In this document: positions 30,401 to 38,211 of the stretch, piece after piece
Position numbering within the stretch: position 1 is the first letter of the stretch
Layout: each line of letters starts with the position of its first letter
Assembly (NCBI GenBank): GCA_020432165.1
Contig: JAGQGU010000065.1
Location: 1-41,707 of the forward strand
Origin: Thermomicrobiales bacterium
Lineage (GTDB): Bacteria; Chloroflexota; Chloroflexia; Thermomicrobiales; UBA6265
Length of the DNA: 41,707 nucleotides
Direction of reading: 5' to 3'
Program-made: the position numbers and the translations under genes
The notes under the pieces: model-generated
Databases searched by the model: none
What the model was told of the DNA's origin: nothing
The model's input: the letters and a program-made list of their open reading frames with translations, nothing else

Positions 30401-30406
30401 TATACT
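30401..30406 (+). promoter_or_regulatory. Possible -10 box for the 30495 cluster
   Basis: TATACT is a good -10 about 90 bp before the ATG of the 44-aa protein gene. No convincing -35 lies at the proper distance. Confidence 0.3.
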
Positions 30407-30494: not shown

Positions 30495-30629
30495 ATGGCA
30501 AGCCCAACAGATACGGTGCAATTGAATGAGGCGGATATCGCCTTCCTGCTCAACCTGCTGCGCGATGCGAGTGGCCCTATGACCACCGCCGAGCTGGTGG
30601 AAGCCCTGAAGAATCGCAAGGCGAAGTAG
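30495..30629 (+). CDS. 44-aa protein of unknown function
   Basis: AAAGGAG lies 9 bp before the ATG at 30495, and the gene starts a tight cluster, ending 26 bp before the 613-aa gene. The product, QLNEADIAFLLNLLRD followed by PMTTAELVEALKNRK, reads as two helices joined by a turn. This resembles a minimal helix-turn-helix or an interaction helix pair. The second half resembles the helix-turn in the 613-aa neighbour (QPLTDEMLVEDVL), so the two may bind similar partners. No family is recognised. Confidence 0.65.
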   Translation: MASPTDTVQLNEADIAFLLNLLRDASGPMTTAELVEALKNRKAK

Positions 30630-30655
30630 CCTTCACCGCAGGAGCAATCCCAACT

Positions 30656-32497
30656 ATGTCCACGAATTCCGGCGAGCTGGTTCTCGCCTTCAATGGTGCC
30701 AAGAAGCTGCAGACCGCTGCCTCCAAGGCATTTGAGGCGCTGCGCATGCGTGGCGCGTTTATGAGCGAGAATGCGGCCATCCGCGTTTCCGCCACCGAGC
30801 TCGCCGAGTTCATCGGTGTTACGCCAGCGGTTCTTACCGATGCCGTGGCCGAGAATCCGGAAGTCTTCGGTGTCGAGACCACTGAAGATGGCACCGTTTT
30901 CGTCAGCACCACCCGTGATGGGCGCGCGCCATCCACGATGATCGTCGACGATACCCACACGCTCAAGCAGCGCCTGATGACACCACAACCGAAGCCGGCT
31001 CCACGCCCGCGACCGGTGCGTGAAGTCGTTCGCGCTAACGAAGCCTGGGCGACATTTGTCGGCGGCACAATCAGCGATGATCTCTTCGATGATGAAGAGT
31101 TCGGTTTCGCTGAGCCAGCGGCCGAGCAGGCTGCGGTCGTCACTACACCAATCGTCGAAGAAACGGTTGTTGCCGAGACTCCGGTGGTGGAAGCCATCGT
31201 TGAGCCGGTGATCGAAGAGATCGCCGAGGTCACACCGGCCGCAGAGGAAGAAGCCGCGACAGCCGTGGTGGAAACCACGCCTGAACCGATGGTCGTTGAG
31301 GCCGAGCCGGTGGTGGAAGACGTCCGCCCAGAGATTCCGGTCTTCGAGGAAGTCGTCCGGCAGTCGACGCCTGCACGTTCGCTCGGCGAGCCGACCGATT
31401 TCAGCGATACCGACGCCGCTGCCATCGCCGCTGCTCTGGAAACCCAGTTCAGCCATCATTCGCATGTGGCCTTCTTCGGTGGTCGCTGGATGACGACCGA
31501 TCGCGCGCATCGCCTCAGTCGCGGCAATATTCGCGATATCCGTCAGTACATCGAAGAGCAGGAACAGCCGCTCACCGACGAGATGCTGGTTGAGGATGTG
31601 CTGCGCGTGCGCCCGAGCAATCCGGAATACGCCAACACCGTCTTTGGCCTGAACTACTGGTTGGGTCGCGAACGCGATTTCGAGTTCGTGGGCACGCGGG
31701 ATCAGCGCTTCTGGAGCGTCACCGATCTGCCAGCTCTCGGCACGTCATTGAAGAAGCCGAACGATATCGGTTCCGACTATCGCTTCCTCAATGATGGCGT
31801 TAATCCCGGGGCTATCGCCCATCGTTCGGTAAGCTCGGTCGATCACACCGTGAGCTTCTACGAATGGAATCTCGGTTTGCTGCCATACGACGAGGAACTG
31901 CAGCAGCTCTTCCCGGCACCGATGCTGCCGGATCAGCGCAGCGCGGTCTTTACCTTTGAGATCCCGCAGAGCTACACGACCTATTTGGTCGAGCTGCGGT
32001 ACCCCACACCAACCCGTGGTGGATTCATCCTTGGTCTGGACGATCTCTACTTCGATTCGCTGGTACCCGGTGCCATCATCTCTATCAGCGCGACTGAGAA
32101 CGATGGTCACTACAAGGTGGAGTACCTTGCTGGCGATGAGCAGAGCGACCGGCTGCTGGAGGTGGACGACAAGCGTCCGCGCTACCACTTCCGCCCAACC
32201 ACCTATGCCTGCGCTGTGGATCGTGCCTGGTTGCTGAACGAGGATCGTTTCCCGAATCTCGCTGGCCAGAAGCCACTCACCGATCGCGAACGCCGCAAGC
32301 TCGCGACCGTGCTGGAGATGACCTTCGAACGCGCCGGTATGGACGACGGCAATGGTGGTTACCTGGCATCGTTCGACGATCTGCTGGCCGCTATCAATAT
32401 CGAGCGACCAGTAAGCGCCGACCTGCTGCATAACGAACTTGAACTGCATACCGGTATTTCGGGCGACGATGCCAACGGATACACCTATGTCCCGTAA
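30656..32497 (+). CDS. 613-aa protein with probable winged-helix domains and an acidic linker, function unknown
   Basis: I do not recognise this protein as a whole. Residues 35-90 look like a winged helix (VSATELAEFIGVTPAVLTDAVAENPEVFGVETTEDGTVFVS). Residues 150-235 are a Val/Glu/Pro/Thr-rich acidic linker with almost no other residue types. Residues 290-360 again look like a winged helix of the HARE-HTH/RNA-polymerase-delta style (NIRDIRQYIEEQEQPLTDEMLVEDVL, then FEFVGTRDQRFWSV). A C-terminal beta-rich domain of about 250 residues follows. A nucleic-acid-binding or transcription-related role is inferred from this. AGGAG precedes the ATG, and its end overlaps the HEAT gene by 11 bp. Confidence 0.75.
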   Translation: MSTNSGELVLAFNGAKKLQTAASKAFEALRMRGAFMSENAAIRVSATELAEFIGVTPAVLTDAVAENPEVFGVETTEDGTVFVSTTRDGRAPSTMIVDDTHTLKQRLMTPQPKPAPRPRPVREVVRANEAWATFVGGTISDDLFDDEEFGFAEPAAEQAAVVTTPIVEETVVAETPVVEAIVEPVIEEIAEVTPAAEEEAATAVVETTPEPMVVEAEPVVEDVRPEIPVFEEVVRQSTPARSLGEPTDFSDTDAAAIAAALETQFSHHSHVAFFGGRWMTTDRAHRLSRGNIRDIRQYIEEQEQPLTDEMLVEDVLRVRPSNPEYANTVFGLNYWLGRERDFEFVGTRDQRFWSVTDLPALGTSLKKPNDIGSDYRFLNDGVNPGAIAHRSVSSVDHTVSFYEWNLGLLPYDEELQQLFPAPMLPDQRSAVFTFEIPQSYTTYLVELRYPTPTRGGFILGLDDLYFDSLVPGAIISISATENDGHYKVEYLAGDEQSDRLLEVDDKRPRYHFRPTTYACAVDRAWLLNEDRFPNLAGQKPLTDRERRKLATVLEMTFERAGMDDGNGGYLASFDDLLAAINIERPVSADLLHNELELHTGISGDDANGYTYVP

Positions 32498-33560
32498 GAA
32501 CGGCCAGAGCGATGACGCACCCATTCACTTCTTCAATCTAGAGGAAGAGAATGTGGATGGCGATATCGATCTGGATAGCTATCAGCTGGACTATCCTCAG
32601 GTGAGCTTCGAGCAGAGTCTGGAAGCGATCCAGGAGGACGCGCTCGCACCCATGGATGTACTCGGCTTCAGTAATATGACGCTGAAGAACATCCATGAGC
32701 TGCGCGGGGTCTGGGGCACACTTTCGGACGAAACCCGAGAGACGATCGCGGAGCTGGTGCTCACGGTAGGACTCGAGCAAATCTTCACCGACTTCGGTCG
32801 CTTCTGGCAGGTTCTGCTGGAGGACAAGAGCGAAGCGGTGAAGCTCGTGGCTGCCCGTGGCGCCACAGGATCTGAGGAAACAGCGCTGATCGCACCATTG
32901 ATCGTTATCGCCGAAGGTGATGACAGTCTGGTATTGCGAGAGGCGGCGATCCGTGGCCTCGTGCAAAGCGTGATGGCGCTCGATTTCGACAATCTGTACC
33001 TGGACAAGAAGGACATCGCCCGTCTGCAACGCATGAAAGCGATGGCCGGCGACGAGTCCTGGCCAACCCCGCTGCGAGCCGCCGCGCTGGAGACGTGGTC
33101 TCACTTCACGATGGATGACGATACGATGACACTCATCGAGTCATTCATAGAGAGCGACAACGATGATCTTCAGATCGGTGCGATGAAAGCGATGATCCAG
33201 GTGGGATCCGCGCACTTCACCCGCTTCCTGGAACGGCAGTTGCAGAGTACGGACGTTGATCGTCGCGAAGCTGCTGCCTACGCGATGGGCATGAGCGGCG
33301 ATGAGGCTGTGGTGCCCATGCTCACCATGACCGCGCGCGAAGACACGGAGCCTGCGGTGCGCGAGGCGGCCTATGCTGCCCTCGGTAATCTGGCGAGCAA
33401 GCCCGCTACAAAGGCATTGGAAGAGCTCCTGAAACACGCCAGCGATGATGAGATCGAGTTGATCGAAGCAGCACTGGAATATGCCAACGAGATGGATCAA
33501 ATGGAAGATATGGCCATGTTCTATCTCGAGGACGACGAACTCGAAGACGAGGACTACTAG
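32487..33560 (+). CDS. HEAT-repeat protein of unknown function
   Basis: This 357-residue protein is mostly helical repeats in HEAT style. Examples are SEAVKLVAARGATGSEETALIAPLIVIAEGDDSLVLREAAIRGLV, then NDDLQIGAMKAMIQVGS, DVDRREAAAYAMGMSGDEAVVPML and EPAVREAAYAALGNLAS, each about 30 residues. Both ends are strongly acidic (HFFNLEEENVDGDIDLD at the start, EDDELEDEDY at the end). Such proteins usually act as scaffolds. Its start at 32487 overlaps the 613-aa gene by 11 bp; an alternative in-frame ATG lies at 32469. The overlap suggests that the two proteins form a complex. Confidence 0.8.
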   Translation: MSRKNGQSDDAPIHFFNLEEENVDGDIDLDSYQLDYPQVSFEQSLEAIQEDALAPMDVLGFSNMTLKNIHELRGVWGTLSDETRETIAELVLTVGLEQIFTDFGRFWQVLLEDKSEAVKLVAARGATGSEETALIAPLIVIAEGDDSLVLREAAIRGLVQSVMALDFDNLYLDKKDIARLQRMKAMAGDESWPTPLRAAALETWSHFTMDDDTMTLIESFIESDNDDLQIGAMKAMIQVGSAHFTRFLERQLQSTDVDRREAAAYAMGMSGDEAVVPMLTMTAREDTEPAVREAAYAALGNLASKPATKALEELLKHASDDEIELIEAALEYANEMDQMEDMAMFYLEDDELEDEDY

Positions 33561-33611: not shown

Positions 33612-34637
33612 GTGCCCGCCAACGATATCAGTCAGCAGGAGTGGGATGCCCTGCTCATCGAACACGGTGGTCATCTGCTGCAAAGCTGGCGATGGGGCGA
33701 GTTTAAGGGCCGCCACGGCTGGCTCCCGGTCCGTATTCATGTGAAGACACCGCACGGAGCAGGACTTGCCCAGATCCTTTTCCGCAAGCGCGGTCCGATT
33801 AGCGTCGGCTACTGCCCACGCGGACCGGTGATCAGCGGCGATGCTGAGGAAGTGTGGACAGAGCTCCGCAAAGAGATCGATACCGTCTGCAAACAACAGC
33901 GAGCCATGAACGTGATCATGGAGCCGGACCAGGATCTGGGGTTGGGTGATTCGTTGCGATCCTATGGCCTCAAGCCCGGACCAGCGCATAACCAGCCAGG
34001 TCGTACCGTGATGGTGCCGCTGGAGCCCGATGACGTGCTGCTTGGTCAGATGCATCAGAAGACCCGCTACAGCGTGCGCCTGGCCTCCCGACGCGGAGTT
34101 GACGTCAAGGTGTCCGACCCTCACGACCGTGACGCCATCATCACCTTCTATGAACTTCTTACTGATACCGCCGGTCGCAATGAGTTCGCGGTGCATTCGC
34201 GTGAGTATTACGAAGATTTCCTCGATGTTTATGGGGATGATGCATTCTTTGTCTTCGCCAGCTTCGAAGGGCATCTGTGTGCGGCCGTGATTGCGGCAAA
34301 ATTCGGTGATACCGGCATCTATATGTATGGTGCCTCCAGCACGGTGCATCGTGGGCACGGAGCAGCATTCCTGCTCCAGTTCGAAGCGATGAAATGGGCG
34401 CGCGATAACGGCTGCAGCCAGTACGATCTCTGGGGTATCCCGATGCAGGATCCCGAATCGATCACCAGCGAGAGCGGCGAAGCGATCGCTGGGACCAAGG
34501 GCGATGACTGGCGCGGTATCTACCGTTTCAAGACCGGATTCGGCGGCCACATTGTGAACTTGCCAGCAACGCTGGAGCGAGAGTATCTGCCCGGGTTGCC
34601 CTGGCTGGCACGCAAGCTCGGCGTGATGGCAGATTAG
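33612..34637 (+). CDS. FemX-like peptidoglycan bridge aminoacyltransferase
   Basis: The 341-residue product matches the FemABX family (lipid II aminoacyltransferases, double GNAT fold). It shows HLLQSWRWGEFKGRHGW near the start, GYCPRGPVI, MHQKTRYSVRLASRRGV, the central IYMYGASSTVHRGHGAAFLLQFEAMKWARDNGCSQYDLWGIP and a final YRFKTGFGGHIVNLP. These enzymes add amino acids from aminoacyl-tRNA to the third residue of the stem peptide. The start is GTG at 33612 with GGAGG upstream. It is directly followed by murE (2 bp) and then a paralogue, placing it in cell-wall assembly. The amino acid added is unknown. Confidence 0.92.
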   Translation: MPANDISQQEWDALLIEHGGHLLQSWRWGEFKGRHGWLPVRIHVKTPHGAGLAQILFRKRGPISVGYCPRGPVISGDAEEVWTELRKEIDTVCKQQRAMNVIMEPDQDLGLGDSLRSYGLKPGPAHNQPGRTVMVPLEPDDVLLGQMHQKTRYSVRLASRRGVDVKVSDPHDRDAIITFYELLTDTAGRNEFAVHSREYYEDFLDVYGDDAFFVFASFEGHLCAAVIAAKFGDTGIYMYGASSTVHRGHGAAFLLQFEAMKWARDNGCSQYDLWGIPMQDPESITSESGEAIAGTKGDDWRGIYRFKTGFGGHIVNLPATLEREYLPGLPWLARKLGVMAD

Positions 34638-34639
34638 CC

Positions 34640-36145
34640 ATGGGTATCCGTCCACAGGTTCAACCACGAGCCGCTTCGCTTGCCGAACTTACTGCGACCC
34701 TACCCCACGCGCGTCTCTACGACGACGCGATCATCACCGGGATCACCTATGACTCCCGCGATGTGCAGCCGGGCGATCTCTTTGCGGCACTGCGTGGAAG
34801 CGATTTCGATGGCCACGCCTATATTCCGCAAGCGATCGCGAACGGTGCGGCAGCCATCCTCGTCGAGCAGATTCCGGATGGTATCGATCACCCGGCGATC
34901 GTGGTTGACAACACCCGACGCGATCTGGCCCCTATCTCATCGGTATTTTATGGAAACCCCAGCCGGGAACTGATCACTATTGGCCTCACTGGCACGGATG
35001 GTAAAACTACCACCACGGCCTTGACTCGATTTGTCCTGGCGGAATCCGGGATACCAACGGGCAGCATTGGGACATTGGGTATCGATATCGGTGATGGCAC
35101 CCAGATCTCGCTGGGGCACCAGACAACACCCGAATCACACCTTGTGCAGGGATACCTGCGCCAAATGGTGGAAGCTGGCACGAGAGCGGTAGTTATCGAG
35201 GCAACCAGTCACGGACTGGCCATGCATCGGCTGGATGGCACAGAGTTCACCATCGCCGGTGTTACCAACATCACGCTTGAGCATCTTGAGTATCACGGCA
35301 CGGTTGAGGCATATCGTGCTGCCAAGGGCATCCTCATCCAGCGTGTGGCCGTGAATGCTGGCCACGTGGTCCTCAATGCTGACGATGAAGGTGCGATGAG
35401 TCTGGAGTCGCTCGCCACAGGTGCAAGCCTGCACACCTATGCGATGTCTGGAGCCGTGGCCGAAATGATGGCGGAGAATATCACCGCTGATCACCGCGGT
35501 AGTCGCTTCGAGATCGTGCGGGGAGGCGAGCGCCTCGTCGCCAACCTGCCGCTTATCGGCGAGTTCAATATCGCCAATGCGCTCTGCACCATCGCTATCT
35601 GCGAAGCTGCAGGCGTCCCGATTCAGCAGTCAATAGAGATTCTCGGGCGCGCGCCGGGAATCATCGGCCGGTTGGAACGCATCGATTGCGGTCAGGATTT
35701 CGGCGTGGTCGTGGACTATGCCCATACACCGGCCAGTCTGGAGAAGATTCTTACGCTCCTGCGTGGCCTTGTGGGCGGTGGCAGACTTCTGGTTGTCTCC
35801 GGCAGCGCTGGCGAACGCGATGTGACCAAGCGTCCCCTGCAGGGAGAGGTGATGAACCGACTGGCAGAAGTGGTCATCATCACCAGCGAGGATCCGCGCA
35901 ATGAGGATCCTCTGGCGATTATTGAGGAGATCGCTAACGGTGCGATCCCGGCCGCTGCCGATGTCTATCAGATTGTGGATCGGCGCGAGGCGATTGCTCT
36001 CGCCTTCTCGCTGGCCCGAACGGGCGATGTCGTGCTCCTTGCGGGTAAGGGCCACGAAAACAGCATCATTTGGGGGTTTGAGCATCGTCCATGGAACGAA
36101 TCGGCGGTTGCGCGTGAACTGCTCCTCCCCTATCTTGGTGCCTAA
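34640..36145 (+). CDS. murE: MurE-type UDP-MurNAc-tripeptide synthetase
   Basis: This 501-residue Mur ligase adds the third amino acid to UDP-MurNAc-L-Ala-D-Glu. It has the N-terminal domain motif SRDVQPGDLFAAL, the P-loop TGTDGKTTTT at 117-126, the catalytic ESHGL-like EATSHGLAMHRLDG, VVVDYAHTPASLEKIL and GERDVTKRP. The amino-acid-selecting loop is TSEDPRNEDP (416-424). The Arg of the DAP-type D-N-P-R motif is kept, but the preceding Asp-Asn is Glu-Asp, so meso-DAP is likely but not certain (Lys or Orn are possible). It starts 2 bp after one femX and ends 62 bp before another. MurF and other mur genes are absent. Confidence 0.9.
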   Translation: MGIRPQVQPRAASLAELTATLPHARLYDDAIITGITYDSRDVQPGDLFAALRGSDFDGHAYIPQAIANGAAAILVEQIPDGIDHPAIVVDNTRRDLAPISSVFYGNPSRELITIGLTGTDGKTTTTALTRFVLAESGIPTGSIGTLGIDIGDGTQISLGHQTTPESHLVQGYLRQMVEAGTRAVVIEATSHGLAMHRLDGTEFTIAGVTNITLEHLEYHGTVEAYRAAKGILIQRVAVNAGHVVLNADDEGAMSLESLATGASLHTYAMSGAVAEMMAENITADHRGSRFEIVRGGERLVANLPLIGEFNIANALCTIAICEAAGVPIQQSIEILGRAPGIIGRLERIDCGQDFGVVVDYAHTPASLEKILTLLRGLVGGGRLLVVSGSAGERDVTKRPLQGEVMNRLAEVVIITSEDPRNEDPLAIIEEIANGAIPAAADVYQIVDRREAIALAFSLARTGDVVLLAGKGHENSIIWGFEHRPWNESAVARELLLPYLGA

Positions 36146-36207
36146 GTGACACGGATTGGTACACCCGGGCGTTATCCCCATAGACAATGTCAGAGGGAGG
36201 ATACACC

Positions 36208-37248
36208 ATGCTGGTCCAGATGCAGGCAGAACCGATTTCCCGCGCCGGTACGGAAGGTAGCAAGATTATGGTAAGCATGTCTCTACCTGAAGCGGGTCAT
36301 CTGCTGCAATCTCCGGCATGGGCTGCGTTTAAGGCGAAGCACGGTTGGAAATCCCAGACTATTTCCACACGCATGGGCACACATAGCGCCTATGCTCAGG
36401 TGTTGTTTCGCAGGGTTGGTCCGTTTAGCATCGGGTACGTTCCTCGTGGACCGCTGATGATCGATCCGGATAACGCGCTGGTCGAGAGATTTGCGCAGGA
36501 ACTGGATCAAGCAGCCCGCAAGCATCGCGCCTTGTGGGTATTGGTGGAACCCAATGATCGTATTCCGACATTGCCCGGCTTTGTCGCTTCCCGGGACCAT
36601 ATTCAGCCCACCCGCACGGTGCGTGTGCCCCTGGCAACGGACGATGAGATGCTGGCGGCGATGCACAAGAAGACGCGCTATCACGTGCGTTTGGCAGCCC
36701 GGCATGGCATCACTATTCTCGCAGGTGGCGTGCAGAATGTAGAAGCGTTCTATCAGCTTCTGCAGGAAACCTCAGATCGGAACGGATTCTGCATTCACCC
36801 GATTAGCTATTATCGGGATGCGCTGATAGCACTGGGTGAGAACGCAGTGTTGCTCTGCGCCGAGCACGAGGGCAATCTGGTCGCGGCTGTCATCGTAGCC
36901 GCCAGCAAGCAGGAAGGCATCTATCTCTATGGATGTTCCTCCACGCAGCACCGGGGTCACGGTGCCACCAGCGCGCTTCAGTTTGCCGCAATGCAATGGG
37001 CTCGCGAGCGTGGCTGTAGCCACTATGATCTGTGGGGTATCCCCGAACGTGATCCCGAAGTCACTCAGACCGATGATGGCAAGCATCAACGTGGCTCCTA
37101 TGGTGAGGATATGACCGGTCTTTACCGCTTCAAAACGGGCTTTGGTGGCGAGATTGTGCAGATGCCCGCTACCATGGAGAAGGTGTATCATCCGTGGCTG
37201 GCACGAATGGTGCGTCAGGTGATATCGCTTCGACGTAAGCAGGCGTAA
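36208..37248 (+). CDS. Second FemX-like peptidoglycan bridge aminoacyltransferase
   Basis: The 346-residue paralogue of the first FemX shares GHLLQSPAWAAFKAKHGW, FSIGYVPRGPLM, MHKKTRYHVRLAARHGI, IYLYGCSSTQHRGHGATSALQFAAMQWARERGCSHYDLWGIP and YRFKTGFGGEIVQMP. The two copies probably add successive residues of the bridge or have split specificity, as FemA and FemB do. The ATG at 36208 is preferred over 36187 because GGGAGGAT precedes it. The next gene starts directly after its stop. The N-terminal 28 residues differ from the first copy. Confidence 0.92.
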   Translation: MLVQMQAEPISRAGTEGSKIMVSMSLPEAGHLLQSPAWAAFKAKHGWKSQTISTRMGTHSAYAQVLFRRVGPFSIGYVPRGPLMIDPDNALVERFAQELDQAARKHRALWVLVEPNDRIPTLPGFVASRDHIQPTRTVRVPLATDDEMLAAMHKKTRYHVRLAARHGITILAGGVQNVEAFYQLLQETSDRNGFCIHPISYYRDALIALGENAVLLCAEHEGNLVAAVIVAASKQEGIYLYGCSSTQHRGHGATSALQFAAMQWARERGCSHYDLWGIPERDPEVTQTDDGKHQRGSYGEDMTGLYRFKTGFGGEIVQMPATMEKVYHPWLARMVRQVISLRRKQA

Positions 37249-38211
37249 ATGACCCCACATCGTTTCCCCCGTCGCACGCTCTTCGGCGCATCGCTTGCCG
37301 GGGTGCTGGCTGCACGATCCACCGCTGCCCAAACCAACATCTACGGCCGGATCGCCTTTATCCAGGATGGCAATATCATGCAGTGGACACCGGAAGGTGT
37401 CAGCCTGCTCCACCGCGATGGCAATGCGATGTCGCCGAGTTGGCGTCCGGGAGCGAGCGAGCTTATCTATGTGCGCAATGGCGGATCGTTCAGCAATCTG
37501 ATCACCTTGGAAACCGGGACCGGACGCACCAGACGTCTCACCGATAGCGAGAGTACATACCCTGAAGGCAGCCAGGACTACGTTCTGGATTGCGACTGGA
37601 TCAATGACGCCTGCTGGAGTGAATCGGACATCATCGTCTTTTCCTCGAACGCGGAGACGACCGACGGTGGGCTCAATCTGTGGGTATTGCGATACACCAC
37701 CGACTATATGTTCCCCGGTCCAAACGATGGTGCCGAGCCTGGTCAACTGGAGAAGGTAAGCGTGGATGCGGATGGCCGTTACGCAGCCTATACCGTCACT
37801 GGCGACAACCTTATGAGCAGCTATATCAGCCTGCGCGATCTGGATACCGGCACCACTTTTCCGGTGATGGAAGGCGCACAGGGCGCGTATGATGCGGCCA
37901 TCAGTCCAAATAGTGACTGGGTGGTTGGCACGATTCGCGATTCCGATGGTGTGAACGACCTGTGGATATGGGAACGGGAGACCGAAAACACTATCCGCCT
38001 GACCCATGGCGAGCAAGCCAGTAATGTCACCTGGGACCCATACGGCGATGCGATCGCGTATCTGGCATTTACTGGCAGCGGCTTTAGCCTACGAGCAATC
38101 TACCTGGACTTCTCCGGCGATGATCCCGTTGTCAGCGGCGATCCGATTGTGTTGATCCAGAATGCCAACATCGATAGCACAAGCCGACCGAGCTGGAACA
38201 CAGCGGAATAG
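37249..38211 (+). CDS. Tat-exported TolB-like beta-propeller protein
   Basis: This 320-residue protein has a twin-arginine leader (FPRRTLFGASLAGVLAARSTAAQ) and then about six short repeats of TolB/WD40 propeller type. Examples are GRIAFIQDGNIMQWT, SWRPGASELIYVRN, AISPNSDWVVGTIRDSDG and NVTWDPYGDAIAYLAF. Such propellers bind partners or ligands outside the membrane. Its ATG is the base after the femX stop, so the two are coupled, and it may be linked to the wall. No enzymatic motif is seen. The repeat element at 38211 begins in its stop codon. Confidence 0.82.
   Translation: MTPHRFPRRTLFGASLAGVLAARSTAAQTNIYGRIAFIQDGNIMQWTPEGVSLLHRDGNAMSPSWRPGASELIYVRNGGSFSNLITLETGTGRTRRLTDSESTYPEGSQDYVLDCDWINDACWSESDIIVFSSNAETTDGGLNLWVLRYTTDYMFPGPNDGAEPGQLEKVSVDADGRYAAYTVTGDNLMSSYISLRDLDTGTTFPVMEGAQGAYDAAISPNSDWVVGTIRDSDGVNDLWIWERETENTIRLTHGEQASNVTWDPYGDAIAYLAFTGSGFSLRAIYLDFSGDDPVVSGDPIVLIQNANIDSTSRPSWNTAE

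Follow-up and report, generated by a model that had tools for sequence, protein, structure and literature searches.

The B3 domain is carried by plant factors such as ARF1/ARF5, VAL1, FUS3 and LEC2, and in bacteria the fold is familiar from restriction enzymes, where domains of the same fold family occur in the endonucleases LlaJI.R1, BfiI, NgoAVII and UbaLAI. RNA polymerase delta (RpoE) joins a HARE-HTH domain to an acidic tail, and HEAT repeats are found in bacterial proteins such as CpcE/F and NblB as well as in the designed alphaRep. Each of these has a partial counterpart in a three-gene unit from a Thermomicrobiales bacterium, located in a window of 41,707 nucleotides (the whole stretch of DNA analysed), which encodes a 44-aa protein (SMALL), a 613-aa protein (WH) and a 357-aa HEAT-repeat protein (HEAT). 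Residues 391-522 of WH are predicted to adopt the same fold as the plant B3 factors. Unlike them, the WH barrel is bacterial, shares about 10-15% identity with them, is acidic in the class under study and lies between winged helices. Unlike the B3 restriction enzymes, WH is devoid of a nuclease or NTPase domain and is the product of a near-universal core gene. WH shares with delta an acidic disordered region, carried as a linker. It has not one winged helix but three, of which the second, in a homologue from another class, scores close to delta's and level with other winged helices; it also has a B3-like barrel, and it gives no HARE-HTH Pfam match. CpcE/F, NblB and alphaRep are the nearest sequences to HEAT, which differs from CpcE/F and NblB by falling far under the NCBIfam cut-offs, by its strong acidity and by its genomic setting. 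The literature searched, of partial coverage, contained nothing on B3 in Chloroflexi or on a winged helix combined with HEAT in Chloroflexus. The component folds (winged helix, B3-like barrel and HEAT) are not new in themselves; their assembly, the small subunit and the class-wide core status are matched by nothing in the libraries or the literature searched. The first-pass annotation had put the unit forward as a candidate for an undescribed system, and no strong match to a characterised complex was found.

The three ORFs are as first described, all on the + strand of the window, which is one contig of a source genome of 3.2 Mb in 105 contigs. SMALL (30495..30629) is a helical protein and the first gene of the unit, upstream of WH wherever this could be assessed in the class. 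It is followed by WH (30656..32497) and HEAT (32487..33560), and the WH and HEAT genes overlap by 11 bp, as reported. Each gene had been credited with its own ribosome site; this holds for SMALL and WH, each preceded by AGGAG, but HEAT has a weak site only, and its translation is probably coupled to that of WH. A TATACT box at 30401-30406 is merely promoter-like, and no k-mer stood clearly above shuffles in a search for an upstream operator motif. Between the SMALL ORF and its counterpart in a locus of the same genus (L031) there are 13 synonymous and no nonsynonymous codon differences, a pattern by which the ORF is judged to be under strong selection at the protein level. In addition, profiles built from some loci recovered SMALL, WH and HEAT in order among the ORFs of held-out loci, with E-values of 1e-7 to 1e-17 for SMALL. 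Because of this codon pattern and this recovery, all three are, on the sequence evidence, genuine genes, and chance ORFs are excluded. No family above chance was found for SMALL or WH in Pfam, NCBIfam, PADLOC or PHROGs, and a PDB sequence search gave no relative beyond chance and no family covering either protein, in line, for two of the three proteins, with the earlier statement that the unit has no recognised function.

An AF2 model of WH built from a 49-row alignment has a mean pLDDT of 83.1, with 404 residues at or above 90. It predicts an N-terminal winged helix at residues 12-92 (30689..30931), which matches MarR, Zalpha and TFE winged helices with Z of 7-8. This is followed by a disordered acidic linker at residues ~96-250 (30941..31405) of mostly low pLDDT, below 50 over much of its length, whose net charge is -24 in the window protein and has a median of -16 over 49 members. 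A second winged helix is predicted at residues 254-358 (31415..31729), a B3-like pseudobarrel at residues 391-522 (31826..32221) and a third winged helix at residues 540-612 (32273..32491; one FoxP3 row, Z 7.2). The acidic linker had been recognised in the first-pass annotation; in the remainder of the chain, the model predicts three winged helices where two had been proposed there, and a B3-like barrel in place of the beta-rich domain. In VIA-align, the barrel superimposes on ARF1 with Z 10.4 and an rmsd of 2.4 over 99 residues, and the top 19 rows are all B3 proteins from plants and restriction enzymes, other folds starting from ~8.1. Foldseek alone placed WH at E 0.01-0.03 with probability up to 1.00; it gave no E below 0.001 for either WH or the homologue described next, and a viral structure library held no WH match at E<=0.001. 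The Pfam B3 profile (PF02362) detects nothing in the source genome at E<=10 and gives no hit in either set of WH proteins scanned (49 members from the class and 18 from another class). L095, a WH homologue belonging to that other class and about 19% identical to WH over the shared region, was modelled independently from an 18-row alignment (pLDDT 89.3, pTM 0.73). Its top 19 rows are again B3 proteins, with Z 10.7 for FUS3, VAL1 and ARF5 and 9.1 for LlaJI.R1, whereas the next other fold scores 7.5; BfiI matches the B3-like barrels at Z 7.5-7.7. Because it recurs in this separately modelled homologue, the B3 pseudobarrel is a well-supported prediction for WH. Within the barrel, residues Q427, Q438, R454, G455 and G460 are invariant.

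The unit is conserved across the class, which is probably Chloroflexia in the GTDB sense, the other class with homologues being probably Anaerolineae. WH is present in 148 of 158 class genomes and in all 93 of those with completeness of at least 90% and contamination of at most 5%. HEAT was found by single-sequence search in 138 of the 158 and in 87 of the 93, mostly adjoining WH. Gene order was scored in 65 class loci from ~63 genomes. SMALL lies upstream of WH in 63 of them; of the two misses, L011 has a start extended in error and L013 meets a contig edge. HEAT lies downstream of WH in 60; one miss is an ORF-extension artefact in which the HEAT match is present (L018), another is a contig edge (L037), and in L039, L042 and L044 no HEAT follows WH. 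The order SMALL-WH-HEAT was also kept in held-out class loci, so the conserved unit that had been proposed stands, and gene order in relatives, on which the proposal had been made to depend, is preserved. An apparent natural fusion of WH and HEAT (L104:5474-8302, one 942-aa ORF) was rejected as a frame slip or assembly error and left uncounted; compared with its close relative L105, the end of WH there is out of frame over the last ~35 codons. In another locus (L112:2456-4722) a frameshift or assembly error divides WH into ORFs of 397 and 356 aa.

The WH profile also finds distant homologues of ~520-560 aa in the other class, from which the reciprocal profile recovers WH; the alignments of the two classes compare at E 8e-25. 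SMALL is homologous to the N-terminus of these proteins: in profile-profile comparison this segment scores a probability of 95% with P 4e-8, and P is 7e-6 against the whole other-class alignment. Control comparisons gave 3% (P 0.015, hhalign) for SMALL against WH and 10% (P 0.003) for SMALL against k3, a protein of ~145 aa without a Pfam family. The likeness first noted between SMALL and a helix pair of WH is thus very weak, a copy of that pair being rejected at P 0.015, and the true relative of SMALL is the other-class N-terminus. When two proteins encoded apart in one group form a single chain in another, this is a classic sign of a shared complex. Since SMALL and WH show this arrangement, they probably act together.

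In nearly all other-class loci examined, k3 follows the WH homologue (L084-L096 and L100-L103; for example L089:9439-9882). The idea that k3 is a detached N-terminal winged helix found no support (hhalign 0.2%). Elsewhere in the phylum, genomes without WH carry more distant relatives of k3, beside YebC-, MoeA- or PheT-like genes. At L142:5616-6416 and L143:5633-6388, the WH homologues are cut to 251-266 aa and end after the second winged helix, without the B3-like and third winged-helix parts, and k3 is still next to them. In the other-class loci examined, HEAT is not beside the WH homologue and no wall genes are among the neighbours, which include Hsp20-Lon and S6.

HEAT repeats had been read from the sequence, and Pfam confirms them (HEAT_2 3.4e-21, 75.8 bits against a cut-off of 27.7; HEAT 39.4 against 23.5). 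The protein is strongly acidic, with net charges of -15 to -52, and its reading as a scaffold-like protein is supported. Downstream of it in the window, all on the + strand, lie a FemX/FemAB-family aminoacyltransferase (33612..34637; Pfam FemAB 7.1e-36), MurE (34640..36145; TIGR01085, 452.7 bits against a cut-off of 257.3), a second FemX/FemAB-family protein (36187..37248; FemAB 8.1e-45) and a beta-propeller-like exported protein (37249..38211; weak PD40/DPPIV_N matches), a recurrent last gene in the order. The last has a twin-arginine-like start (PRRTLFGASLAG). This murE is the sole one found in the source genome and adjoins femX genes outside the main mur cluster; a separate rsmH-murF-murD-murC cluster (L144) is without murE. 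Other window neighbours are MFS, DUF5656 and argininosuccinate synthase genes by Pfam. In 35 class loci the sequence reaches far enough downstream to judge; 24 of them have FemX after the unit, 21 have MurE and 29 have one or the other, so the stable link to femX/murE that had been suggested is borne out within the class. In many families a PIG-L deacetylase is inserted after HEAT and a ROK-family kinase lies upstream; the genes surrounding the cluster vary freely between families, while the trio, FemX and MurE are constant. HEAT accompanies the cell-wall genes as strongly as it accompanies WH. In two lineages the operon is split at the WH/HEAT boundary (L106 and L108-L110 versus L039 and L044). 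In family f7, genus g53, SMALL-WH (L039) is separate from HEAT-PIG-L-FemX-MurE (L106, L110). The unit is split in f10 too, where HEAT is followed by aminotransferase-like and NYN-like genes and FemX (L108, L109), and in one locus (L107) the detached HEAT is without FemX. Therefore, the locus consists of two sub-modules, SMALL-WH and HEAT with the wall genes, which are usually joined. All three proteins had been viewed as one complex; the fusion evidence concerns SMALL and WH alone, and HEAT is separate in two lineages.

Our preferred reading, held tentatively, is that the trio forms a lineage-specific, DNA-associated complex, a transcription regulator or nucleoid protein, possibly acting on its own murE/femX operon. 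SMALL and WH would belong to a single protein machine, WH as a multi-domain, putative DNA-associated factor in which a long acidic tether joins the first winged helix to the rest, and SMALL as its obligate small subunit, which in the sister group is the N-terminus of the WH homologue itself. HEAT, strongly acidic and translated together with WH, may be a repeat adaptor through which the factor is connected with other proteins. The analysis establishes the gene content with its conservation and order, the predicted folds, the fusion of SMALL and the single murE found; a SMALL-WH complex with HEAT as adaptor is what we infer. As a core chromosomal factor of the class, the complex would most likely have among its targets its own operon, further down which murE and femX serve to build the stem peptide of peptidoglycan and to bridge it. 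Direct control of murE and femX by the complex is plausible; that it binds DNA, where it would do so, and that it controls these two genes are guesses on our part. The nucleic-acid-binding folds first proposed for WH are indeed predicted, and a DNA-associated role is argued from the presence of four DNA-binding-type folds in one chain. The charge of these regions in the class is unlike that of typical DNA binders: by net charge, the B3-like domain is acidic in every one of the 49 class members (-2 to -14), and all three winged-helix regions have a negative median. The other-class B3-like domain is basic, at the 99th percentile of the local-gene baseline for net charge.

Such acidity could point to a DNA-independent, RNA-polymerase-associated, delta-like factor, in which a winged helix docks on the polymerase, the acidic segment competes with nucleic acid and the barrel binds protein. 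The second winged helix of L095 matches delta (8x6g_E, Z 7.5, 24% identity over 76 residues; 9a6y_A, Z 7.1), and the long linker (median -16) and the acidic B3-like domain of the class would suit this role. However, many other winged helices tie with delta on Z for L095, Pfam HARE-HTH is absent from the 49 class and 18 other-class WH members (E<=0.5 and <=1), delta is without any B3-like part and the other-class barrel is basic, and we consider a delta-like factor a fair rival, though an unlikely one. A B3-type restriction or defence system is far less probable still and, to our minds, scarcely credible. BfiI, LlaJI and NgoAVII are among the structural matches of the L095 model, but Pfam finds no nuclease or ATPase domain in any WH member (49 class and 18 other-class), neither SMALL nor WH matches a PADLOC defence model and HEAT matches repeat-containing ones only, and WH is near-universal and single-locus, which defence genes are not.

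Two further readings concern the gene order rather than the folds. The operon may hold two unrelated modules, a SMALL-WH chromosomal factor and a HEAT protein that scaffolds PIG-L, FemX and MurE, with no complex between WH and HEAT. The splits in f7 g53 and f10 favour this, with SMALL-WH apart and HEAT staying with PIG-L/FemX/MurE or with FemX (L106, L108-L110), as does the other-class WH without an adjoining HEAT; but WH and HEAT are adjacent across the remaining families of the class, with an overlap or short gaps, and we regard this two-module reading as rather unlikely. The conserved order might instead come from a housekeeping region that rearranges slowly, with no link between the trio and the wall genes. 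Chromosomal core genes are frequently clustered as a general rule, and the other-class WH has different neighbours. The surroundings nevertheless change freely between families while trio-FemX-MurE persists, and the operon splits fall at the WH/HEAT boundary, so that slow rearrangement seems to us an improbable account.

The DNA-associated complex would acquire a wider meaning if the class relied on it, with its winged helices, plant-like B3 barrel, SMALL and HEAT, to tie the state of the chromosome or of transcription to the supply of peptidoglycan precursors, an idea that we put forward as speculative and quite unlikely as it stands. Thermomicrobium roseum, also of the Thermomicrobiales, is reported to have an atypical wall in which peptidoglycan is scarce yet essential (PMC2615216), and lineage-specific control of wall supply is therefore worth testing. 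The trio is a core gene set of a whole bacterial class, and WH is core in the sister group as well. A near-universal bacterial B3-like protein, if true, would extend the range of the fold past that of plants and of restriction enzymes, and would bear on the origin of the plant B3 factors. With the trio placed ahead of the sole murE found, it can be tested directly whether a DNA-associated factor is tied to the supply of the cell wall.
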